A DNA stretch of 41,016 bases, taken from NCBI GenBank assembly GCA_017305555.1, contig JAFKKM010000049.1:1-41016 (forward strand), written 5' to 3'. The position numbers were made by a program, and so were the translations under genes. A model generated the notes under the pieces. The model had not been told where the DNA came from, did no database searches, and saw nothing but the letters and a program-made list of their open reading frames with translations. Every line of letters begins with the position of its first letter. The first letter of the stretch is position 1. Positions 25,332 through 36,516 of this stretch are shown piece after piece. The stretch is from Hyphomicrobiales bacterium. GTDB lineage: Bacteria; Pseudomonadota; Alphaproteobacteria; Rhizobiales; Xanthobacteraceae.

Positions 25332-25649
25332 GGCACCCTGGCCCGCAGCATCCGACGGCGACATAGTCGGTCCTGATTTGAACGTCTCGCGGTTCGAAAC
25401 GTATCGCCGCAACGTGCATGTCAGTGCGCTATCGGCCACGGAACACGTGGTCCTCTCACGCGCTAATCGGAAATTGCGTTCATATTGACAGTATCGGCAT
25501 TTAGAACACGATAAAACATCAGCGTGTTTGATCCGCCTGCTCAAAATGAGCACGGCACCGACCAACTCGCGGATCGAACTGCTCGTGACGCAAGACCAAA
25601 TCAAGAACTGTCACGACAAAATAAGCTGATAATAAGGGGAGGAGACCTG
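25332..25649 (+). promoter_or_regulatory. 318-bp gap upstream of the OFA-family MFS gene
   Basis: No convincing gene was found here. TTGACA occurs at 25485-25490 and could be a -35 box, followed 17-18 bp later by a weak ACGATA/CGATAA element. An open frame entering from 25524 joins the MFS gene in phase, but it lacks any family sequence before the ATG at 25650 and is taken as untranslated leader. Confidence 0.35.
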
Positions 25650-27080
25650 ATGGAATTCACCGAACCGACGGCCTACAAGCGATCGCTGATCCCGTTTCTC
25701 GATCGCTCCCATTCGATAGCAAAGCCCGGCTTCTCGCGCTGGCTGGTGCCGCCGGCGGCGCTATGCGTGCATCTATGCATCGGACAGGCCTACGCCTTCA
25801 GCGTATTCAATCTGCCGATGACCAAACTGCTCGGCATTTCGGCATCCGCACCGGGCGACTGGAAACTGACCCAGCTGGGATGGATCTTCTCCATTGCGAT
25901 GCTGTTCCTCGGCATGTCGGCGGCCGTGTTCGGCCGCTGGGTCGAGGAAGGCGGACCACGCAAGGCGATGTTCACGGCGGGCGTCTTGTGGGCCGGCGGC
26001 TTCATGGTTTCGGCCATCGGCATCGCCCTGCACCAGCTCTGGATCATCTATCTGGGCTACGGCGTGCTCGGCGGCTGCGCACTCGGCATCGGCTACATCT
26101 CGCCGGTCTCGACGCTGATGAAGTGGTTTCCAGATCGTCCGGGGATGGCGACCGGGATGGCCATCATGGGCTTCGGCGGCGGCGCGTTGATCGCCTCGCC
26201 GCTGTCGGTCTGGCTGATGGGCAAGTTCGCCTCAACCACTGACGTCGGCGTGCTGAAAACCTTCATCGTTCTCGGTTGCGCCTACTTCGTCTTCATGATG
26301 GTCGGTGCGATGATTGTTCGCGTCCCCGCCCCGGGCTGGAAGCCTGACGGTTATGTGCCGCCGGCGGCTGCCACCAAGCTGATCACCAAGAACGACGTCT
26401 TCGTCTACGATGCGATCAAGACACCGCAGTTCTGGCTGATCTGGACGGTGCTGTTCCTCAACACCACTGCCGGCATTGGCGTGCTGGGCCAAGCTTCCGC
26501 GATGAGCCAGGAAATGTTCCCCGGCCACATCACGCCCATTGCCGCGGCCGGCCTGGTCGGTCTGATGAGCTTGTTTAATATGGGCGGTCGCTTCAGCTGG
26601 GCGTCGTTGTCGGACTACATCGGACGTAAGAACACCTACTTCGTCTATATGTGTCTCGGCTTCCTGCTCTACATCACCGTGCCCTACGCCGGCGGTAGCG
26701 GGAACGTCTACCTGTTCGTGTTCTGCTTCCTGATCATCGTCAGCATGTATGGCGGCGGCTTCTCGACGGTGCCTGCGTATCTCAAGGATATGTTCGGCAC
26801 GCGCTATGTCGGCGCCATCCACGGCATCCTGCTGACCGCATGGTCAGCTGCGGGTGTCGTCGGGCCGGTGCTCATCAACTACATCCGTGAGTACAACGTC
26901 ACCCACGGCGTGCCGAAGGCACAGGCCTACAACACGACCATGTACATCATGGCCGGACTGCTGGTGGTCGGCTTCATCGCCAACCTGTGCGTCAGGGCTG
27001 TCGACAAGCGCTTCCATATGAAGGCTGAAGACGACAAGATCCTCGACACGTCACTGGCGACCGCCGCCAGCCGCGCCTGA
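25650..27080 (+). CDS. MFS transporter of the oxalate/formate antiporter (OFA) family
   Basis: A 476-residue, ~12-helix transporter starting at ATG 25650, just after AGGGGAGGAG. The segments HLCIGQAYAFSVFNLPM, LGMSAAVFGRWVEEGGPRKAM and NMGGRFSWASLSDYIGRKN are typical of OFA/OxlT-related MFS proteins. It sits in the inner membrane and would exchange or co-transport small carboxylates. A second small gene (27162) follows closely and probably encodes its one-helix partner. A formate dehydrogenase lies a few kb away, but the region between the two contains a terminator and opposite-strand genes, so a formate-transport role is only a possibility. Confidence 0.87.
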   Translation: MEFTEPTAYKRSLIPFLDRSHSIAKPGFSRWLVPPAALCVHLCIGQAYAFSVFNLPMTKLLGISASAPGDWKLTQLGWIFSIAMLFLGMSAAVFGRWVEEGGPRKAMFTAGVLWAGGFMVSAIGIALHQLWIIYLGYGVLGGCALGIGYISPVSTLMKWFPDRPGMATGMAIMGFGGGALIASPLSVWLMGKFASTTDVGVLKTFIVLGCAYFVFMMVGAMIVRVPAPGWKPDGYVPPAAATKLITKNDVFVYDAIKTPQFWLIWTVLFLNTTAGIGVLGQASAMSQEMFPGHITPIAAAGLVGLMSLFNMGGRFSWASLSDYIGRKNTYFVYMCLGFLLYITVPYAGGSGNVYLFVFCFLIIVSMYGGGFSTVPAYLKDMFGTRYVGAIHGILLTAWSAAGVVGPVLINYIREYNVTHGVPKAQAYNTTMYIMAGLLVVGFIANLCVRAVDKRFHMKAEDDKILDTSLATAASRA

Positions 27081-27608: not shown

Positions 27609-27770
27609 GCACCCGATGGCTCCTTCACGGCGGCGCTGTTGCGCGATCGCCTCGACAACGGCCGCAAGGTTGCGATACAGATTTACGAGTTTTTCGACCG
27701 GCATGGGCTCACCATTCGCCATGGCGGTTTTCATCGCATCAACAAGGACCGGCTCGATCTGTTTGGCAGA
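27609..27770 (+). pseudogene. Remnant of the 3' end of a selB gene (selenocysteine elongation factor)
   Basis: In one frame this reads PDGSFTAALLRDRLDNGRK, then VAIQIYEFFDRHGLTIRHG and INKDRLDLFG. This is how the last winged-helix domain of SelB ends: Phe-Thr-x-Ala, Arg-Asp-Arg-Leu-x-x-Gly-Arg-Lys, then Ile-x-x-Glu-Phe-Phe-Asp-Arg. The intact SelB at 28102 ends with the parallel but clearly different segment FTTSQARQALGTSRRVAIP and LLEYLDGRGWTRRIDG. The frame has a stop (TAA) at 27600 just upstream and no start, and the rest of SelB is absent, so only about 50 codons remain. It lies 40 bp before selC, the usual neighbour of selB. Identity by recall and by comparison with the intact copy. Confidence 0.6.
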
Positions 27771-27809
27771 TCGCCCATGTCAGGACGGATTGCGAAGATC
27801 GAAGTCAAT

Positions 27810-27905
27810 GGGAGAGCATCGTTCCCGGTGGGGCGTCCGGACTTCAAATCCGGGAAGGGTCGCGAGACGGTTCTTGGTGGGTTCGACTCCCATTCTCTTC
27901 CGCCA
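27810..27905 (+). tRNA. selC: tRNA-Sec (anticodon TCA), with encoded CCA
   Basis: About 96 nt with the oversized form of selenocysteine tRNA. The anticodon stem CCGGA (27837-27841) and TCCGG (27849-27853) frames the loop CTTCAAA, so the anticodon is TCA (27844-27846). The T-arm has stem GTGGG/CCCAT around TTCGACT. The acceptor pairs GGGAGAG with CTCTTCC (one G-U), giving 7 good pairs plus an eighth C-U mismatch. A G discriminator and CCA end at 27905. The long variable arm is also present. The tRNA reads in-frame UGA when charged and carried by SelB, and an in-frame UGA with a SECIS lies at 34615. No selA or selD is in the window. Confidence 0.92.
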
Positions 27906-27986
27906 ACCTAAGGAGCGCGCTCGGCGAGATGAGTATTCGACGTGAGAGCGCTCCGAGGCATTTGGATTCCCAGCAATCCTCCGAAT

Positions 27987-28045
27987 CTTCAAAAGCAGTG
28001 AGACGAAGTAACTCGCGCTCGCAGGCTCGATTCCTGCCCGCCCCT
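27987..28045 (+). other. Possible decayed 3' half of a second tRNA-Sec-like gene
   Basis: CTTCAAA, identical to the tRNA-Sec anticodon loop, occurs at 27987-27993. At 28021-28037 there is a perfect 5-bp T-arm, GCAGG-CTCGATT-CCTGC, followed by CCGCCCCT, which looks like a 3' acceptor strand. The 27 nt between loop and T-arm are near the length seen in long-variable-arm tRNAs. The anticodon stem does not pair and no 5' acceptor half was found, so it cannot be a working tRNA. It lies between selC and the intact selB. The rest of 27906-28101 shows only a 7-bp inverted repeat (GGAGCGC at 27912-27918, GCGCTCC at 27948-27954). Confidence 0.35.
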
Positions 28046-28101
28046 ATCAATTGCCGCGACCCCGACGCCGCCGAGGTCATCGACGGCCGGCGCGCCGCGC
28101 G

Positions 28102-29901
28102 ATGACGACCCACGTCGTCGCGACGGCCGGTCACGTCGACCACGGCAAGAGCACCCTGGTCCGCGCGCTGACCGGGATGGAGCCGGACCGCTGGGAAGAG
28201 GAGCGCCGGCGCGGACTCACCATCGACCTCGGTTTTGTCTGGACAACCCTCCCCTCCGGCCGGGAGGTCGCCTTCGTGGACGTGCCCGGCCACGGACGAT
28301 TCATCCGCAACGCGCTGGCCGGACTGGCGACGGCGCCGGTGGTGTGCTTCGTGGTGGCTGCGGACGAGGGCTGGTCGGCACAATCCTCCGACCATCGCGA
28401 TGCCATCGCAGCGCTCGGCATTCGCCACGGGATGATCGTGGTGACCAAGGCCGATCGCGCGCCCGACCTCGTAGCGGCAACTATCGAGCGTGCCCACCGC
28501 GAGTTCGCACACACCGGTCTGCGTGACGCGCCCGCGATTGCCGTATCGGCCGCACAGAACATCGGATTAGATACGTTCAGACAGATCCTCGATGACGTCC
28601 TGGCCAAAACGCCCGCGCCCGACGCCAGCGGGCGGCTGCGGCTGTGGATCGACCGCTCTTTCAGCGTCCCGGGGGCGGGCACGGTGGCGACCGGCACTCT
28701 TGTCGCCGGTACGCTGACCAAGGGTGACCGGCTCGTGGTGGTCGGCGATGGACGGGAGCCGCGCGAGGTCGTCGTCCGCGCCCTGGAATCGCGGGATAAG
28801 CCTGCCGATGCCCTCCGCCCCATGAACCGGGCCGCGGTCAACCTGCGAGGTGTATCCGCGGGGGACGTCCGTCGCGGTCAAGTCCTGACGACACCAGACG
28901 CCTGGCTTATGGCTACAATCGTCGATGTGCGCCGCATCGGCGGCGCCGCGCTCGACCAGGTGCCTACACAACTCACCGTGCATATCGGGACAGTCGCTGT
29001 GCCGGCTCGGCTGCGCTGCTTCGATGCCGAGCATGCCCGGATCATCCTCGACTGGCCGCTGCCGCTGATCGTGGGCGACCGATTGCTGCTCCGCGATCCG
29101 GCGCGTCACCTCGTGCTCGGCGGCGTTGGCGTGCTGGACCCTGATCCACCGCAACTCCCGCGCCGTGGGGATAGTGCGCGGCGCCGGATAGCACTGGCCG
29201 CCATGCCATCCGATGGCGACGTGTTGGCCAAGGTGGCGAGCCGTGGTGCTGTTGAAGTGAATGATCTGCGCCGGATGGGCCTCGTGGGTCCCGACGCCCT
29301 GCCGCCATCCGAGGTGCGTGAGTTCAACGGTTGGTGGGTGCACCTTCCCGCATATGACGCGTGGCGACAGCAACTGCGGGCACTGGTGGAGAGCGACGCC
29401 CAGCGGGATCAGCTCACGCCCGGCATCTCTCAAGGGGCCGTACGCGACGCCTTTGGTCCAGCCGCAGCACGCTTCATAGATCAACTGGTCGCGGATGCCG
29501 GCCTCGAGCAGCGCAATGGTTACGTCCGGCTCCCGCAGGCTCGCATCGACCTTGGTCGCGCCGAGGCCGGTGTCGTCAAGCTGGAGGCGCGGCTGCTCGC
29601 AAATCCATTCCTTGCGCCGCTAGCCGGCGATCTGACTGCTCTCGGCTTAGGGAGCCGCGAACTCGCCGCAGCCGAACGCGTCCGTCGGGTGCTGCGCCTT
29701 CAAGGAGGCGTGGTGCTGCTACCGTCCGCGCCGACGCTCGCGATCCAAGCCCTGGCACAACTGCGGCAACCGTTCACCACCAGTCAGGCACGGCAGGCCC
29801 TGGGAACCAGCCGCCGGGTAGCGATCCCGCTGCTGGAGTATCTCGACGGACGCGGCTGGACGCGCCGGATCGACGGCGAACACCGCGAGGTCGTGCGGTG
29901 A
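28102..29901 (+). CDS. selB: Selenocysteine-specific translation elongation factor SelB
   Basis: A 599-residue translational GTPase. The ATG at 28102 (MTTHVVATAGHVDHGKST) is preferred because the GTPase domain starts immediately; no strong ribosome site is seen. G1 is GHVDHGKS (10-17), G2 Thr40, G3 DVPGH (60-64, followed by Gly where most have Glu), and G4 TKAD (115-118). Two beta-barrel domains follow, then winged-helix repeats that bind the SECIS hairpin (ending near 599). It carries Sec-tRNA to ribosomes at UGA in the formate dehydrogenase mRNA encoded convergently at 32878-34875. The text EPDRWEEERRRGLTIDLGF and TTLPSGREVAFVDVPGH resembles actinobacterial SelB as I remember it, unlike the remnant before selC; this is unverified and would suggest transfer. 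Confidence 0.93.
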   Translation: MTTHVVATAGHVDHGKSTLVRALTGMEPDRWEEERRRGLTIDLGFVWTTLPSGREVAFVDVPGHGRFIRNALAGLATAPVVCFVVAADEGWSAQSSDHRDAIAALGIRHGMIVVTKADRAPDLVAATIERAHREFAHTGLRDAPAIAVSAAQNIGLDTFRQILDDVLAKTPAPDASGRLRLWIDRSFSVPGAGTVATGTLVAGTLTKGDRLVVVGDGREPREVVVRALESRDKPADALRPMNRAAVNLRGVSAGDVRRGQVLTTPDAWLMATIVDVRRIGGAALDQVPTQLTVHIGTVAVPARLRCFDAEHARIILDWPLPLIVGDRLLLRDPARHLVLGGVGVLDPDPPQLPRRGDSARRRIALAAMPSDGDVLAKVASRGAVEVNDLRRMGLVGPDALPPSEVREFNGWWVHLPAYDAWRQQLRALVESDAQRDQLTPGISQGAVRDAFGPAAARFIDQLVADAGLEQRNGYVRLPQARIDLGRAEAGVVKLEARLLANPFLAPLAGDLTALGLGSRELAAAERVRRVLRLQGGVVLLPSAPTLAIQALAQLRQPFTTSQARQALGTSRRVAIPLLEYLDGRGWTRRIDGEHREVVR

Positions 29902-29945: not shown

Positions 29946-30033
29946 TCGTCATGCGCGGGCTTGACCCGCGCATCCATCCCAAAAGAGAAGTCTTCTCAAC
30001 GATGACGGATTGCCGGGTCAAACCCGGCAATGA
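29946..30033. repeat. Pair of REP-like palindromes between convergent genes
   Basis: Two hairpins with 9-bp stems: ATGCGCGGG-CTTGA-CCCGCGCAT at 29951-29973, and ATTGCCGGG-TCAAA-CCCGGCAAT at 30009-30031. The paired arrangement with GTCAT / GATGA flanks is what I remember as a REP/BIME-type unit in Bradyrhizobium-family genomes. It lies between the 3' ends of selB and the formate dehydrogenase operon and may act as a two-way transcription stop or RNA stabiliser. Confidence 0.7.
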
Positions 30034-30064: not shown

Positions 30065-31015
30065 CTAACCGTCGCCATCTTCTTTACGGCTCTGGACGTG
30101 CGAGAAGCCGAACCTGCCCTTGATGCACAAGTTACCGTGGCCGATGTCGTGATCGTGGGGCGACGTTACCTTGACGATCTTGTTGTCCTGGACGTGGAGG
30201 TTCACGTTGCAGCCGACACCGCAATAGGTACAGACCGTGGTGGTCTGCGTCTGCTGCGACTCGTCCCAAGTACCCTCTTCGCGCATGTCGTACTCTGATT
30301 TGAACGACAGGGCCCCCGTCGGGCATACCTCCACACAGTTGCCGCAGAAGACGCACGCAGAGTCCGGCAACTCAGCGGCGTACTCGGTGGATATCTGAGA
30401 GTCGAACCCGCGCCCCGCGATCTGGATCGCAAAGCTGTTCTGCCACTGGGATCCACAGGCGTCCACGCACTTGTAACAGAGGATGCACTTGCTGTAGTCG
30501 CGCACATAGAGGTCGTTATCGATCTTGATCGGCTGACACATCGTGTCCGCGACGCTGCCGTCCCCGGCGTGGTGCTCACCCGGCTCGTGGACGTCGCGCC
30601 TGCGGCTCTCGCCGGCTCTTTCACCGTAACGGTCCGGGTCGGCGTCGTAGCGCTCCATCCACTCAGGGATTCGCGGCGTGGTGGAGAGATCGACCGAAGA
30701 ACCGAGCAGTTCGAGCACGAGGCGACGGCTGTGACGGACCCGTTCACTGTCGGTCTTGACGACCATGCCGGGCTGCACCTTGCGGGAACAGGAGGGCACG
30801 AGGACGCGCGAGCCTTCGAGTTCAACCATGCAGACCCGGCAGGCATTCTTGGGCGTGAGGGTGTCGCCGTAGCAGAGCGTCGGCGTGTCTTTTCCCGCAG
30901 CGTTACAGGCAGTCAGGATGGTGCTCCCCTCCGGGACGCTGACCTCCTTGCCGTCGATGGTAATCGTGATCTGCCGGACAGGCGTATCCGTAGCACCCGT
31001 ATAGTGCACGTTCAT
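30065..31015 (-). CDS. Formate dehydrogenase Fe-S subunit (NuoG-like N-terminal half of the usual alpha subunit)
   Basis: A 316-residue iron-sulfur protein. A ferredoxin-like [2Fe-2S] domain has cysteines at about 48, 59, 62 and 76. Two [4Fe-4S] sites follow at C177/C180/C183/C187 and C221/C224/C227/C231. The last stretch, CTYCGVGCNV (262-271) through LCIKGRFGF (C297), is the [4Fe-4S] domain that normally starts a molybdopterin formate dehydrogenase. In most FdsA-type enzymes this whole part is fused to the catalytic domain; here it is a separate protein ending where the catalytic protein begins (its RLTEPLVR start). It would pass electrons from formate oxidation to the NuoE-F-like subunit. 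The start overlaps the preceding gene's stop by four bases. Confidence 0.88.
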   Translation of the reverse strand: MNVHYTGATDTPVRQITITIDGKEVSVPEGSTILTACNAAGKDTPTLCYGDTLTPKNACRVCMVELEGSRVLVPSCSRKVQPGMVVKTDSERVRHSRRLVLELLGSSVDLSTTPRIPEWMERYDADPDRYGERAGESRRRDVHEPGEHHAGDGSVADTMCQPIKIDNDLYVRDYSKCILCYKCVDACGSQWQNSFAIQIAGRGFDSQISTEYAAELPDSACVFCGNCVEVCPTGALSFKSEYDMREEGTWDESQQTQTTTVCTYCGVGCNVNLHVQDNKIVKVTSPHDHDIGHGNLCIKGRFGFSHVQSRKEDGDG

Positions 31016-32874
31016 CTGCTCTTGCTCTCCTCCAGCACACCGAGGCGGTCGATCGCCGACTCGACCGCATTCCAGGCGGCCTGACCAAGACCGCAGATCG
31101 AGGAATCCTTCATCACCAAACCAACATCGCGCAGGATGCGAATATCACGTCCTTTGGCCGCGGCATCGTGGCCGTTGTGCATAATGCGCAGCAACGCCTC
31201 CTCCTGACGCACCGTGCCGACCCGGCAGGGTACGCACTGGCCGCAGGATTCGTCGCGGAAGAAGCTCGCGATGCGCAACAGAATGCCGGACAGATCGACG
31301 GTGTCGTCGAAGGCCAACACCACGCCCGAGCCCAAGGTAGTGGCGTTGGCACGCGCGCCCTCGAAGGTGAGCGGGATGTGGAGTTCGTCAGCGCGCACAA
31401 ATCCGCCTGCCGCGCCGCCGAACAACACCGCTTGAAGGGTTCGGCCCTGCGGAACCCCACCGGCCAGTTCGAGAACCTCGCCCAAGGTCGCGCCGAACGG
31501 CACCTCGTAGACGCCGGGGCGCACGAGGTTGCCTGACACGCAGAACAGCTTGGGCCCGGTGGAGCCCTCGGTCCCGATCTTTGCGTACTGCGCGCCGCCT
31601 ATCTGCATGATCAGCGGCACGTTGCATAAGGTCTCGACGTTGTTCACCACCGTCGGCTTGTTGAAGAGTCCCTGCTCGAACGGGAAAGGCGGCTTGGAGC
31701 GCGGTTCGCCGCGATAACCCTCGATCGAGTTGAAAATCGCGGTCTCCTCGCCGCAGATGTAAGCGCCGGCACCGCGCCGGATTTCCAACTCGAAGCTCCA
31801 CCCGGTGCCCAGGATATCGGCACCCAGGAATCCGCGTTCGCGAACTCTTTCGATGGCGTTGCGCAACATCCGGAAGGCGCGCGGATACTCGCCGCGCAGA
31901 TAGATGTAGCCCCGCTCGGCGCCAATGGCGTAACCGGCGATGGTCATCGACTCGATCAATGCAAACGGATCGCCCTCGAGGATAGCGCGATCCTTGAACG
32001 TGCCGGGCTCGCTTTCGTCGGCGTTGCAGACGAGGTAACGCGGCGTCGCAGGCTGTTTGGCGGTACTCTCCCACTTGATACCGGCCGGGAACGCCGCGCC
32101 ACCGCGACCCATCAGCCGGGACTCCTTGACCTCACTGATGACCTGTCCGGGCCCCATCTCGAAGGCCCGCCGTAGTCCAGCGTAACCGTCGGTCGCGAGG
32201 TAGTCGTCGATGCTCTCCGGATCGACCCGACCGACGCGCTTGAGCAGCATCAAACCTTCTTGGCCGGCCTGCGGCACGGCCATCATCGGTGGCGCCTCGG
32301 CTGCAAGGGCCGCAGGGCCGACATTCAGCGCGAGGACGACTTCTTCGACGGTGGCGGGCCCAATCAGGTGCTCGTGAGGCGGATCGCCTGCCTCCACCGC
32401 CATTGCGGCCGGGGCGCGTTCGCACACACCGAGACAGGGGCTGTGCTTCCAGCCGGTCATGGCCGAGGCCGGACCCAACCGCTTCTCAAGGCTGGCGCAA
32501 ACTTCCTTGGATCCGCGAGCCATACAGGCGATGTCGGTGCAGACATGCACGACGCGCTTCGGCCGCGGATTGGTCGAGAACAGCGCATAGAACGTCGCGA
32601 CGCTATAGACGTCGGCTGCCGACACACTGAGTCGTTTTCCGATGTAGTTCAACGCGCCGGGACTGATCCAGCCGACGCGGTCGTTCACCGCGTGCAGCGC
32701 CTCCATGACGAGGTGTCGCCGGCTTCGTGCCGCATGGCCGGTGTGCGCGCGGCGGTGATCCTGTTCGTCACGTTCGCCGCCGTGCCAGCCGCCCTCACCG
32801 GGCCCACCAAGCCGCCGATCGATTGCCTCGCGTTCTTCCGCGAACGGCTCGGCGTTGGAGAACTTCAGGTCCAC
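31012..32874 (-). CDS. Formate dehydrogenase NAD-reducing subunit, NuoE-NuoF fusion (FdsG-FdsB type)
   Basis: A 620-residue fusion. The NuoE-like part carries [2Fe-2S] ligands at C112, C117, C147 and C151 (VCTDIACMARG and CLGVC). The NuoF-like part has GRGGAAFPAGIKW (256-268, FMN/NAD site), YICGEETAI, and [4Fe-4S] ligands at C544/C547/C550 (ESCGQCVPCRVG) with C594. It takes electrons from the Fe-S subunit through FMN to NAD+. Normally fdsG and fdsB are two genes; fusion is also known, for example in Methylobacterium Fdh1B as I remember it. The first ~55 residues are hydrophilic and low-complexity. It begins 3 bp after the catalytic gene. Confidence 0.92.
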   Translation of the reverse strand: MDLKFSNAEPFAEEREAIDRRLGGPGEGGWHGGERDEQDHRRAHTGHAARSRRHLVMEALHAVNDRVGWISPGALNYIGKRLSVSAADVYSVATFYALFSTNPRPKRVVHVCTDIACMARGSKEVCASLEKRLGPASAMTGWKHSPCLGVCERAPAAMAVEAGDPPHEHLIGPATVEEVVLALNVGPAALAAEAPPMMAVPQAGQEGLMLLKRVGRVDPESIDDYLATDGYAGLRRAFEMGPGQVISEVKESRLMGRGGAAFPAGIKWESTAKQPATPRYLVCNADESEPGTFKDRAILEGDPFALIESMTIAGYAIGAERGYIYLRGEYPRAFRMLRNAIERVRERGFLGADILGTGWSFELEIRRGAGAYICGEETAIFNSIEGYRGEPRSKPPFPFEQGLFNKPTVVNNVETLCNVPLIMQIGGAQYAKIGTEGSTGPKLFCVSGNLVRPGVYEVPFGATLGEVLELAGGVPQGRTLQAVLFGGAAGGFVRADELHIPLTFEGARANATTLGSGVVLAFDDTVDLSGILLRIASFFRDESCGQCVPCRVGTVRQEEALLRIMHNGHDAAAKGRDIRILRDVGLVMKDSSICGLGQAAWNAVESAIDRLGVLEESKSR

Positions 32875-32877
32875 AAC

Positions 32878-34875
32878 TCATCCTTCCTCATTCGCGGTCG
32901 CAAGCTCTTTGTCCGGGCGATCGCGATCGATGGTCTCGGCAACGGCGCTCTCTTGCGGCAGTTCCTCGTTGGTCTTCTCCACCTTGACCGCCGTCGCCTT
33001 GAACTCCGCAGTTTTGGAAATGGGGTCGTTCGCCTCGATAGTGAGCGCGTTGACGTCCATTTCGTCAGGGAAGTTGCAGGCCATGAAGAGTAGCCCGGGG
33101 CGCAAGCCGGGATCGCGACGCGCGGCTGCCAATACGGTTCCGCGGCGCGAAGATACCCGGACCACCTCGCCCTCATTGAGGCCGAGCCGAACCATATCCT
33201 CCGGCGAGATATCGACGCAGGCGCCAAGGCGGATCGGCGAGTTGAAGCCGCCGGACTGCACACCGGTATTGTAGTCGGTCAGTCGCCGACCGGTCGTCAG
33301 GCGCAGTGGAAACTCGTCGTTGAGCTTGTCGACCGGCAGTCTGTGCTCAATGATGCCGAACGGCGCCAGACGTCCGCGCTTCGCGGGATCCTTCTCCCAG
33401 AGCCGGCCATGCAGGAACGGTGACTCCGGTCCGTTCTCGTCGGGGAAAGGCCACTGCACTCCACCCCGTTCCTCGAGTATCCGGTAGGACATTCCATGGT
33501 GCGCCGGCGACACCGCACGCAGTTCGTCCCATATCTGCTCTGCAGTCTGTATCGGCCAGACGTGTCCCAGACGCTCCGCAATCAGGCGGATAATCTCGAT
33601 GTCGTCTTTCGCGCTCCCGGGCGGCTCCAGTGCCTTGCGCACGAGTTGGACCCGTCGTTCGCTGTTGGTGAAGGTCCCCTCGCTCTCGCACCACGCCGCT
33701 GTGGAGGGCAGCACCACATCGGCGAACGAGGCGGTCTTGGTGAGGAAGATATCCTGCACGACAAGGTGGTCCAGATTCTGCAATCGTCTGGCCACCGCCG
33801 TAGTATCGGCGTCGGACTGCACCGGGTTCTCACCGACGACGTAAACGCTGGTGAGATGTCCCTCGTCCATCGCCTCCATCATCTCCGAGAGCGTCAAGCC
33901 GTACTTCGGAGGCATCGTGACGCCCCACATGTGCTCGAACTTCGCCCGGTGCTCGGGATTCCCGACGTCATGGAAGCCCGGCAGATTTTTGGGGATTGCC
34001 CCCATGTCGCCACCGCCCTGGACATTGTTCTGGCCGCGCACCGGAACCAGGCCCGCACCCCAGCGCCCGACCTGGCCGGTGAGCAGCGCAAGATTGCAGA
34101 GCGCCCGCACGTTGTCGGTGCCGTTGTGATGCTCCGTGATGCCGAGTGTCCAGCACAGTTGCGCGCGTTCCGCCTTGGCGTAGTCGTGCGCGAGTTGACG
34201 GATCAACTCCGCCGGCACTCCCGTCTCACGGGAAGTGACTTCCAGAGTCCATGGCTCACACGCGGCGACGTACTCTTCGAACCCGACGGAGGCGTTCGCG
34301 ACGAATGCCTCGTTGACCAATCCGGCGTGGATGATCTCGCGACCGACACCATAGGCCAACGCAACGTCGGTTCCGACGTCGAGGCCGAGCCAAGAGTCAG
34401 CCCACTCCGCCGTCTTGCTGCGACGCGGATCGACTGCGTAGACTTTGGCTCCCTTGTGGATCGCCTTCAACGCGTGATGGAAGAAAATCGGATGTGCTTC
34501 TCGGGCATTGGAGCCCCAGAAGACAATCAGATCCGCATCTTCGATCTCGTTGTAGGACGAAGTACCACCGCCTGCACCGAACACCGTCACCAGACCGGCG
34601 ACGCTAGGAGCGTGTCAAGTTCGGTTACAGGAGTCGATATTGTTGGTCCCGATCACCGCCCGGGCGAACTTCTGGGCGATGAAGTTCAACTCGTTGGTCG
34701 CGCGGGAGCAGGAGAACATGCCGAACGCGTCGGGACCGTGAAGCTCGCGATTGCGGCGAAAGCCATCGGCCGCGCGACCAAGGGCCTCATCCCAAGAGGC
34801 AGGCCGCAGGACACCGTTATCGCGGACGAGCGGCTCGGTCAGTCGCGTATAGTTCTGCTTTGCCTGTCTGCCCAT
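32878..34875 (-). CDS. Selenocysteine-containing formate dehydrogenase catalytic subunit, read through an in-frame UGA
   Basis: One gene of about 665 codons, split in ordinary translation by a TGA at 34617-34615. Start ATG 34875 (MGRQAKQNYT) has GGGAGG upstream. The TGA is codon 87, in the context Asp-Ser-Cys-Asn-Arg-Thr-[TGA]-His-Ala-Pro-Ser-Val-Ala-Gly-Leu. This is the formate dehydrogenase active site, where Sec or Cys precedes His (Sec140-His141 in E. coli FdhF). After it come typical bis-MGD enzyme segments (NEIEDADLIVFWGSNAREAHP, VRGQNNVQGGGDMG) and the C-terminal molybdopterin-binding region (LRLTTGRRLTDYNTG). It oxidises formate to CO2 with Mo or W. It lacks its own N-terminal [4Fe-4S] domain, which is encoded in the gene at 30065. 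Confidence 0.93.
34586..34602 (-). promoter_or_regulatory. SECIS-like hairpin downstream of the UGA (34617-34615)
   Basis: On the minus strand GTCGCC (34602-34597) pairs with GGTGAC (34591-34586), with one G-U pair, around the loop GGTCT (34596-34592). The loop begins 18 nt after the TGA. In E. coli fdhF the SECIS loop is also GGUCU, and also 18 nt past the UGA, as I remember it. This is the element the SelB winged helices recognise. Confidence 0.85.
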
Positions 34876-34906
34876 GCCGGCCTCCCGTATGTTATTCGAT
34901 GTACTC

Positions 34907-34940
34907 CATATATCACGATCTATATCGATCCCGATATATG
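34907..34940 (-). promoter_or_regulatory. Palindromic candidate operator upstream of the formate dehydrogenase operon
   Basis: CATATATC (34907-34914) and GATATATG (34933-34940) are exact 8-bp inverted arms, and TATATCG-ATCC-CGATATA (34921-34938) is nested inside. It lies 32-65 bp before the start codon, where an activator or repressor would act. The ModE/FdsR-like protein encoded at 35425 is the obvious candidate. Confidence 0.5.
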
Positions 34941-35378
34941 AAGACGTGTGCACATGCCGACTCATGCCTTGTTCGATCACAAGCCGCATATCGTTGGTTC
35001 GGAACTACACTTCATGTAGCGATCGGGGAAACGATCGAGAACACCGCGATATTTTTGGGATCGTCGCGCGTAACGTTCCGGACAACTTTGTCGCCGAGAA
35101 ATCGCAGCATTTACATCAGCCGTTATTCAACGGTCTTGTGGCCCTTATGGTCAACTTTGCCTGGCTACCAATCTTGTAAAAAGTTCGCGATCATCATGGA
35201 GCGCGGCTCGATAGAGGGAATGAACCCTCTCGATACGACAAGCGCGTAGCTGCCAGAACCATCTCTCAGGCTTTCGTACGACGCAGATATCTTCGCAGAG
35301 CCGATCCCCCACTGCGCGAAAGCCACTCCAATGTGAACACCCGTACAATTGATGAAGGCGGGAAATACCCTGCTACAC
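34941..35378. other. Gap between the formate dehydrogenase start and the regulator 3' end
   Basis: About 440 bp with no gene I recognise. A minus-strand frame of 73 codons (35165-35386) has no family resemblance and no clear ribosome site, so I leave it out. Near 35020-35035 there is a small inverted repeat (CGATC-GGGGAAA-CGATC). The composition is less GC-rich than the formate dehydrogenase genes. The promoter of the operon should lie in its left part, but boxes are not clear. Confidence 0.4.
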
Positions 35379-35440
35379 GCGGGCACATTTTCTTTGCGGT
35401 CGTAACATGCGCCAGCGCGATGGATCAGGAGGCGATCGCC
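35379..35440 (+). repeat. Right copy of the ~62-bp direct repeat flanking the island
   Basis: This is the partner of 27361-27422 at roughly 80% identity by eye, in the same orientation, 8.0 kb apart. It covers the last codons, stop and trailer of the ModE/FdsR-like gene. On the minus strand the trailer contains TGCCC-N10-GGGTA, a weak hairpin that may be the gene's decayed terminator, whereas the left copy has a strong one. Confidence 0.6.
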
Positions 35441-36516
35441 TTCGCCTCGACGCTATCGAGAAAGCGTGGAACTGTGCTGACCGTGCCGGTGTTGACCGCG
35501 ATATAGCCAGGCAACATCGCGACCGCATCGTGAAACTCGCTGCCCTTCATAATTTCGAGCACGCGCTGCATTGGTTCGGTTTCGAGGAAGGCGCGACGGC
35601 AGACGAAGAAGTAATCCTCCGTCAGCAGCCGGATGAAATCGAGCCCGAACTGACGCGCGGCGGCTTCGACGCCGAAGCTGGCGTCGGCCATATCGCTCGC
35701 GACATAAGCAGCGACGGCGGCGTGGGTGAATTCAATGCGCTGGGCGCCGTTGATGGCCGCCTCATCCACCTTGTGCAGCGCCAGCAGTTGATTGAACAAT
35801 AGCCGCGTCCCCGAATCCGGATCGCGATTGACGAAGCGAACCTTGCGTTCGACCAGATCCTGAAGCGATTGCACGCCGAGCGGATTGCCGGGCTTGACCA
35901 TCAGTCCGAGTTCGCGCGTGACGAAATTGATCACGCGATATTCGCGCGGATCGAGCCACTCTTTACAAGCATCGACGCTTTGCTGGCGCAGCACACCGCG
36001 CGGCAGATGCACGCCCGACAGATCGCAGGCTCCCTGCGCCAACGATACCAGTGAATTCTGATTGCTGACATAGCGCAGGTCTATGCCGATGCCCGGCGTG
36101 CGATCGAGCAGTTCGCGCAGTTTCGGAACGGCAAAGCCATGGCTGGCATGAACGCGGATCACCGACGGGCCGCTGTGCAGGAACGGCTTGATCTCCGTCG
36201 AAAGCTCCTGCGCCAGATTTTCAAGCTGCGGGCCGAGCCGCGCCTGCAACCGCTGTCCGGCCCACACCAGTTTCTCGCCGAAGCTGGTGAGCGTGGTGCC
36301 CTTGCCCCGATGGGTCTCCACCAGCGGCACACCGAAGAAGTCCGACCACTGTTCGATCAGGCTCCAGACATGCCGGTAGGACAATCGCGCGTAGCTGGCG
36401 GCGCTGGTGAGCTTGCCGGTTTTCCGCACCTCGTTGAGAACGCCGAGCATCACCACGGCCGTTTGCGGGCTGCCCTCCTTGTGGAAGCGCCAGATGGTCT
36501 CGATTTCAATTTGCAT
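35425..36516 (-). CDS. ModE/FdsR-like regulator (LysR-type HTH plus periplasmic-binding-protein-like domain)
   Basis: A 363-residue regulator. An N-terminal winged HTH (about 20-95) reads VLNEVRKTGKLTSAASYARLSYRHVWSLIEQWSDFFGVPLVETHRGKGTTLTSFGEKLV, close to the ModE/LysR HTH type. From about 115 comes a PBP-like domain (VIRVHASHGFAVPKLRELL through LMVKPGNPLGVQSLQDLV and NRDPDSGTRLLFNQLL), the PBP_like family that resembles molybdate-binding and MolR/FdsR regulators. It would sense a small anion, for example molybdate or formate. It lies upstream of, and in the same direction as, the formate dehydrogenase operon, and is likely to control it. Operator-like repeats lie before its own start. Confidence 0.85.
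   Translation of the reverse strand: MQIEIETIWRFHKEGSPQTAVVMLGVLNEVRKTGKLTSAASYARLSYRHVWSLIEQWSDFFGVPLVETHRGKGTTLTSFGEKLVWAGQRLQARLGPQLENLAQELSTEIKPFLHSGPSVIRVHASHGFAVPKLRELLDRTPGIGIDLRYVSNQNSLVSLAQGACDLSGVHLPRGVLRQQSVDACKEWLDPREYRVINFVTRELGLMVKPGNPLGVQSLQDLVERKVRFVNRDPDSGTRLLFNQLLALHKVDEAAINGAQRIEFTHAAVAAYVASDMADASFGVEAAARQFGLDFIRLLTEDYFFVCRRAFLETEPMQRVLEIMKGSEFHDAVAMLPGYIAVNTGTVSTVPRFLDSVEAKAIAS

Follow-up and report, generated by a model that had tools for sequence, protein, structure and literature searches.

Why does an alphaproteobacterial contig carry the end of one selB gene, then a selC gene, and then a complete selB gene of a different kind? The locus lies in a 41,016-nucleotide stretch (contig JAFKKM010000049.1 of the Hyphomicrobiales assembly GCA_017305555.1, family Xanthobacteraceae), which is called the window here. 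A first-pass annotation proposed that the resident selB had been replaced by a foreign one, transferred as a unit with its client selenoprotein. My analysis points, with a probability of roughly 0.6, to an addition: an actinobacterial module of SelB2 and a formate dehydrogenase (FDH2) would have joined a genome that keeps its complete selenocysteine (Sec) system, and SelB2 would carry a resident-type Sec-tRNASec to FDH2. The cell probably uses decoding parts of two phyla at once; most likely, FDH2 is decoded by SelB2 alongside the resident SelB1, with no strict separation between the two.

The complete gene after selC (Table 1) was correctly read as a selB. Its product matches the NCBIfam selB profile (TIGR00475) over residues 5-595 with 273.6 bits (cut-off 242.25), has the Pfam domains GTP_EFTU, GTP_EFTU_D2, Beta-barrel_SelB, and SelB-wing_3, and finds its best solved relative in SelB 5lzb (residues 5-594). 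SelB2 is thus a SelB by length and by its GTPase, beta-barrel and winged-helix parts, and is predicted to bind Sec-tRNASec and the Sec insertion sequence (SECIS). Homologues were searched for in one genome per species. Among the best 80 of 177 confirmed stretches, six belong to Afipia, a Xanthobacteraceae metagenome-assembled genome (MAG), a Beijerinckiaceae MAG and an unplaced Hyphomicrobiales MAG (81-87% identical), and the other 74 are actinobacterial (47-63% identical). Trees were made of 63 of the 107 extracted SelBs, of FDH2 (40 rows: 15 alphaproteobacterial, 21 of 25 actinobacterial, and four outgroups) and of SelA (33 rows); all three are quick trees with SH-aLRT support only, with long end branches mostly in the outgroups and with letter-composition warnings. 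In the SelB tree, 12 SelB2 sequences form one clade (support 100) inside a fork of 43 rows (96) of actinobacterial SelBs, apart from SelB1, which falls with proteobacterial SelBs. By this placement, SelB2 is of actinobacterial and not alphaproteobacterial origin, as the annotation had suspected. The window SelB2 pairs with that of genome G258 (81), while the SelB1 of the same genome groups with those of G002, G003, and G007 (100). Since the two SelBs have different nearest relatives, this one quick tree suggests that the module moved among relatives. SelB2 is full-length in all 12 genomes, and its ratio of nonsynonymous to synonymous substitution rates (dN/dS), taken pairwise from the window copy only against its 11 relatives, is 0.14-0.20. 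SelB2 is under purifying selection.

The FDH2 operon is convergent to selB2. The in-frame UGA of its catalytic subunit gene lies in the motif NRT-U-HAPS, at the catalytic Cys/Sec site, and a conserved hairpin follows, by which FDH2 is predicted to be a selenoprotein formate dehydrogenase. The catalytic subunit scores 639.7 bits with NCBIfam Fdh-alpha, under the cut-off of 666.25; the part of the profile at positions 1-51 finds its match in the separate iron-sulphur subunit. It is a split subunit, its Fe4S4 domain being fused to the 2Fe-2S/4Fe-4S subunit. In the 12 SelB2 genomes, 3 of the 11 codons after the UGA vary synonymously, versus 356 of 419 amino-acid-invariant codons elsewhere; with all 15 FDH2 genomes the counts are 4 of 10 and 356 of 407. 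The stretch is therefore under selection as RNA. GGUCU is found in 15 of 15 FDH2 loci, and it forms the hairpin loop of the minimum-energy fold in all except G220 (14/15). In G181 and G320 (L224 and L225), which have no SelB2, the 3′ side of the SECIS stem reads GGUGCAC for GGUGACG, with GGUCU kept.

The client was also thought to be foreign, and this is borne out by distribution and tree. At E up to 1e-150, FDH2 was detected in 25 of 394 sampled genomes of the class of the actinobacterium G414 and in one of 385 of the window's class, the window genome itself. The 15 alphaproteobacterial FDH2s form one clade (99) with G414 as the nearest row, which makes FDH2, on these data, of actinobacterial descent. 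Where the Sec-site codon was read (20 of the 25 actinobacterial genomes, leaving out G442, G476, G492, G552, and G720), it encodes Cys in 19 and is UGA in G414. This genome, recorded as an Intrasporangiaceae MAG, has the same GGUCU after the UGA, and its actinobacterial selB is on another contig than FDH2. As to the proposed transfer as a unit, no SelB was found in the stretches taken around seven actinobacterial FDH2s, and in those actinobacterial loci that were examined, the formate dehydrogenase close to SelB is not FDH2 but another one.

Does the genome still have a selenocysteine system of its own? Contig C153 carries selA, a 267-residue open reading frame (ORF) that I take to be TPR/SEL1-like, selB, and selC in this order, with selD nearby. 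SelB1 is encoded there by an open frame of 792 aa with no stops, the selB-selC overlap is present, and the resident formate dehydrogenase on C153 also carries a Sec UGA. Because this set is complete, SelB2 is an addition.

The sequence directly before selC in the window was correctly recognized as a SelB end, and it is of the alphaproteobacterial SelB1 type. Its translation from 27639 onwards contains the Pfam domain SelB-wing_3 (40.7 bits, E 1.7e-10), and its likeness to complete SelB1 begins at 27609 (tblastn, 64% to residues 590-687 of the C153 SelB1). The reading frame of this remnant crosses selC and stops at 27909-27911. This can be attributed to the nesting of selC in the selB end, a trait described for Alphaproteobacteria in the available part of Mukai 2021 (PMC8124441). 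The DNA of 27609-27911 is 82.9% identical to G254, 82.6% to G258, 81.6% to G391, 81.6% to G001, and 80.3% to G004, and the selB1 ends of G220 and G155 are also within 80-83%. G001 and G004 are of the window's genus; the closer relatives of the remnant come from both genera. The identity is 73.9% to the C153 copy of the same genome and 74-75% to the nearest kin of that copy (G002, G003, and G007). The remnant is therefore not recently derived from the present resident gene, and a copy of the present resident selB is ruled out. It may have come in with the module, or it may be what is left of an older selB in this lineage. In G007, a degenerate selB end and a resident-type selC (46.5 bits) also precede selB2.

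The window selC is called a tRNA by ARAGORN and scores 72.4 bits with Rfam tRNA-Sec RF01852 (cut-off 47). In a control, this model matched in 14 of 14 control genomes and was over the cut-off in five, with matches listed down to about 29 bits, and matches of about 48-53 bits also occurred elsewhere in the sampled genomes; a match was therefore accepted as a selC only if it scored above 54 bits or lay where a selC was expected. With the tRNA-Sec fold, the UCA anticodon and G73 all present, the window selC is predicted to encode a functional tRNASec. The model fold has non-standard pairs at only two positions, where five other resident-type selCs (that of C153 and four others) also have them. 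It differs from the C153 selC at three of the first 92 positions. Base 73 was read by exact match to the preceding 24 bases and by aligning nine copies together with a degenerate one. The C153 selC (L009:8806-8901) has A73 and not G73, while the window selC has G73, as do the resident-type copies in 14 of 14 further genomes that were read. According to the accessible part of a survey, G73 of tRNASec is essential (PMC5330540). With A73, the overlapping selB frame reads CCA for CCG, both Pro. A73 would be either a sequencing error or a loss of function. If the assembly is right in this one base of a draft, the window selC may be the working tRNASec of the cell.

Some relatives have a selC of the actinobacterial type (selC2) about 50 bases before selB2. 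At the corresponding place in the window, a pseudo-selC2 shares 76% identity with the intact G265 selC2 across 88 bases; ARAGORN found no tRNA in it, and it is absent from the RF01852 matches listed at E up to 10. Of the 12 SelB2 genomes, four have an intact selC2 (G006, G092, G254, and G265; tRNA-Sec by ARAGORN, 70.6-74.9 bits), six have a decayed or broken one, and two (G007 and G391) have no trace of it. It is decayed in G155, G220, G001, and the window, and only pieces are left in G110. The selC2 of G258 (L010:9853-9948, 54.8 bits) is a tRNA-Arg with the anticodon UCG according to ARAGORN and has other changes. This is probably decay as well; a recoding tRNA is the alternative. Both genomes without SelB1 have an intact selC2, as do two of the ten with SelB1, a link that in 12 genomes is only suggestive. 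As selA sits between selC and selB in all seven actinobacterial loci inspected, the module has probably lost its selA. SelB2 is kept in 12 of 12 genomes while selC2 is decaying or gone in eight, which suggests that the foreign factor was retained and its tRNA was expendable, and hence that SelB2 accepts the resident-type tRNASec.

How are these parts combined in the relatives? SelB2 was found in 11 and FDH2 in 14 of 391 sampled genomes of the family, and G391, found separately, has both. Because the selB profile matched in 14 of 14 control genomes and was over its cut-off in two, only SelBs over the cut-off were counted. FDH2 adjoins SelB2 in all 12 SelB2 genomes, ten of which have SelB1. Both SelBs are on one contig in G155, G220, G254, and G391. 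In G391, selB2, FDH2, selA, selB1, selC1, and selD are in one stretch; the corresponding stretch of G006, G092, and G254 has selC2, selB2, FDH2, selA, and selD without selB1. The SelA of these cassettes is alphaproteobacterial in the SelA tree. No SelB1 was found in G006 and G092, each of which has one selA and one tRNA-Sec match over 50 bits, namely selC2. There, a resident-type SelA would have to serve the foreign tRNA and SelB. As the two appear to be assembled from metagenomes (99% complete), a SelB1 may have been missed in them. G254 (L195:6359-10931) and G258 (L196) have a further selA-selB-selC-selD set, with a SelB 54% identical to SelB1, and so have three SelBs per genome; no Sec client with the formate dehydrogenase motif was found in the stretch of this set.

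The following mechanism would account for these data. The resident-locus SelA and SelD would make Sec-tRNASec on a resident-type tRNA, and SelB2 would bring it to the UGA of the FDH2 mRNA by binding the SECIS with the apical GGUCU. The selC of the module would have decayed because a host-type tRNA can replace it. SelB2 would be kept because it serves FDH2, while in some relatives SelB1 may be an adequate substitute. The selB end and selC before selB2 would be a scar, left either by another selB-selC that was formerly linked to the module or by the lineage's older selB. A further step would be that the imported locus took over the tRNA supply, so that the window selC is the sole working tRNASec, served by the resident SelA and common to two SelBs of different phyla, each of which would be retained chiefly to serve its own formate dehydrogenase. 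Given the A73 of C153, this is conceivable, but I regard it as doubtful.

Two kinds of observation weigh against this reading. G005, G181, and G320 have FDH2 with the UGA and GGUCU, and no SelB2 was found in them; in each of them a single SelB passes the family cut-off, and it belongs to the SelB1 type (cut by a contig end in G320, a genome 83% complete). Provided that FDH2 is produced in these genomes, SelB2 cannot be strictly required. Moreover, Arthrobacter ipis encodes a formate dehydrogenase next to an actinobacterial SelB, and the loop there is AGUUU, as in the resident gene. Is SelB2 then a dispensable passenger that adds little while SelB1 decodes FDH2? In the FDH2 tree, the three genomes are nested at two separate points (G005 groups with the window and G007 at 90, and G181 and G320 group with G006 at 89), as would be expected if SelB2 had been lost twice or if FDH2 had been transferred by itself; the SECIS loops also overlap. 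A passenger is still unlikely, since SelB2 has stayed full-length under the constraint given above while selC2 decays in most genomes, and it is the sole SelB found in two of the 12. The opposite extreme, in which SelB1 reads only the resident SECIS and SelB2 only that of FDH2, is less probable again. AGUUU was found in 10 of 10 resident-type copies read (L197, L199-L205, L207, and L208; no such gene was found in four other stretches scanned, L009, L195, L196, and L206), against GGUCU in every FDH2. Yet GGUCU is retained in the three genomes where only SelB1 was found, and nine actinobacterial loops comprise five GGUCU, three AGUCU, and one AGUUU (L016). As the loop classes overlap, orthogonality is not claimed, and strict separation was rejected as the main explanation.

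Replacement, the original proposal, would mean that the genome's resident selB was lost and SelB2 took its place at this locus. The arrangement is as expected, with a selB end immediately upstream of selC and a foreign SelB downstream, and G006 and G092, which keep SelB2, selC2, and an alphaproteobacterial selA, indicate that replacement of the resident selB occurred in those relatives instead. For the window genome it is very improbable and was rejected, unless C153 is foreign to it, because of the intact resident set and because the remnant resembles the genes of seven relatives more than that of C153. What stands is that a selB was lost at this place: an older selB may have been lost here, before or after the C153 set was in place. 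Could the window contig (C107) and C153 come from different organisms through binning or contamination? The assembly is a draft in 182 contigs, and G002 and G003, nearest in SelB1, are without SelB2 and FDH2. This is hardly credible, however, with a completeness of 99.99 and a contamination of 0.31, with both SelBs on single contigs in four relatives, and with the nearest FDH2 coming from the same genus (G007). Addition of SelB2 and FDH2 to a complete system therefore remains the preferred reading.

Table 1. Features of the window around selB2 and FDH2.
Feature	Position	Strand	Evidence
selB remnant, alphaproteobacterial SelB1 type, last ~67 codons	27609..27809	+	Pfam SelB-wing_3, tblastn, DNA identity
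selC, resident (alphaproteobacterial) type, UCA anticodon, G73; second selC of the genome	27810..27905	+	ARAGORN, Rfam
pseudo-selC2, decayed, actinobacterial type	27954..28049	+	likeness to intact selC2 of G265
selB2, intact, actinobacterial-type SelB, 599 aa (ATG at 28102, stop ends at 29901)	28102..29901	+	NCBIfam selB, tree, dN/dS
FDH2 iron-sulphur subunit: 2Fe-2S, 4Fe-4S, split-off molybdopterin Fe4S4 domain	30065..31015	-	Pfam Fer2_4, Fer4_7, Molybdop_Fe4S4
FDH2 NAD-side subunit, NuoE-NuoF fusion	31012..32874	-	Pfam 2Fe-2S_thioredx, Complex1_51K, NADH_4Fe-4S
FDH2 catalytic subunit, formate dehydrogenase alpha, in-frame UGA (predicted Sec) at 34615-34617	32878..34989	-	NCBIfam Fdh-alpha
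SECIS region directly 3′ of the UGA, apical GGUCU	34573..34614	-	synonymous constraint, minimum-energy fold
Major facilitator superfamily (MFS) transporter, lactate or oxalate/formate type (context only)	25524..27080	+	Pfam MFS_1; NCBIfam SfMCT over cut-off
Regulator, LysR/ModE-type helix-turn-helix and PBP-like domain (context only)	35425..36516	-	profile matches

Copies of the two outer genes also neighbour FDH2 in G005, a genome without SelB2: the transporter is 76% identical there, and the regulator, which adjoins FDH2, is 96% identical. A palindrome-like sequence at 29950-29975, between selB2 and the FDH2 operon, occurs once in the window and presumably belongs to a dispersed repeat of this bacterial group, which it resembles.

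The broader meaning lies in a dozen close relatives in which SelA, SelB, tRNASec, and the client, drawn from two phyla, were combined, retained, or lost independently of one another: there are genomes with both SelBs, with the foreign one only, or with the resident one only and the same client, and the foreign tRNA is intact or decayed. This is a natural experiment on how interchangeable the SelA-tRNA, SelB-tRNA, and SelB-SECIS contacts are, which bears on orthogonal selenocysteine decoding. Horizontal transfer of Sec decoding is already described in the available text of PMC1794560. No report of an actinobacterial SelB in Alphaproteobacteria, or of SelBs from two phyla in one cell, was found in the open-access literature searched or in passages of PMC12013277, PMC13188914, PMC1780047, and PMC4342817. 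A plasmid search found no record with at least 60% identity among 143 records for SelB2 and 290 for the FDH2 catalytic part after the UGA. The conjugative Arthrobacter plasmid pYA7-1a (L287, NZ_CP110115.1) has fdh-selD-selA-selB beside a Tn3 transposase, with no RNA genes annotated, and illustrates a possible vehicle for such a module.

Which known systems does the locus resemble most closely? Among them are the actinobacterial selC-selA-selB clusters near an FdnG-type formate dehydrogenase (Arthrobacter, Mycobacterium, Kocuria, and others), whose SelBs are up to 63% identical to SelB2 over the full length within the best 80 of 177 and whose selC is of the selC2 type found just before selB2. 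In contrast, the window module has no selA between selC2 and selB2, its client is FDH2 and not FdnG, and the host keeps its own system. The alphaproteobacterial selA-selB with a nested selC, as far as presented in PMC8124441, shares the overlap with both the C153 locus and the window remnant, although the window copy has kept only the selB end. Photobacterium profundum 3TCK has two complete sel operons in one genome, according to the available part of PMC5330540, and so is likewise a case of more than one Sec-decoding set per genome. Here, however, the factors come from different phyla and are tied to different clients, and the tRNA, SelA, and SelB have been lost separately across relatives.

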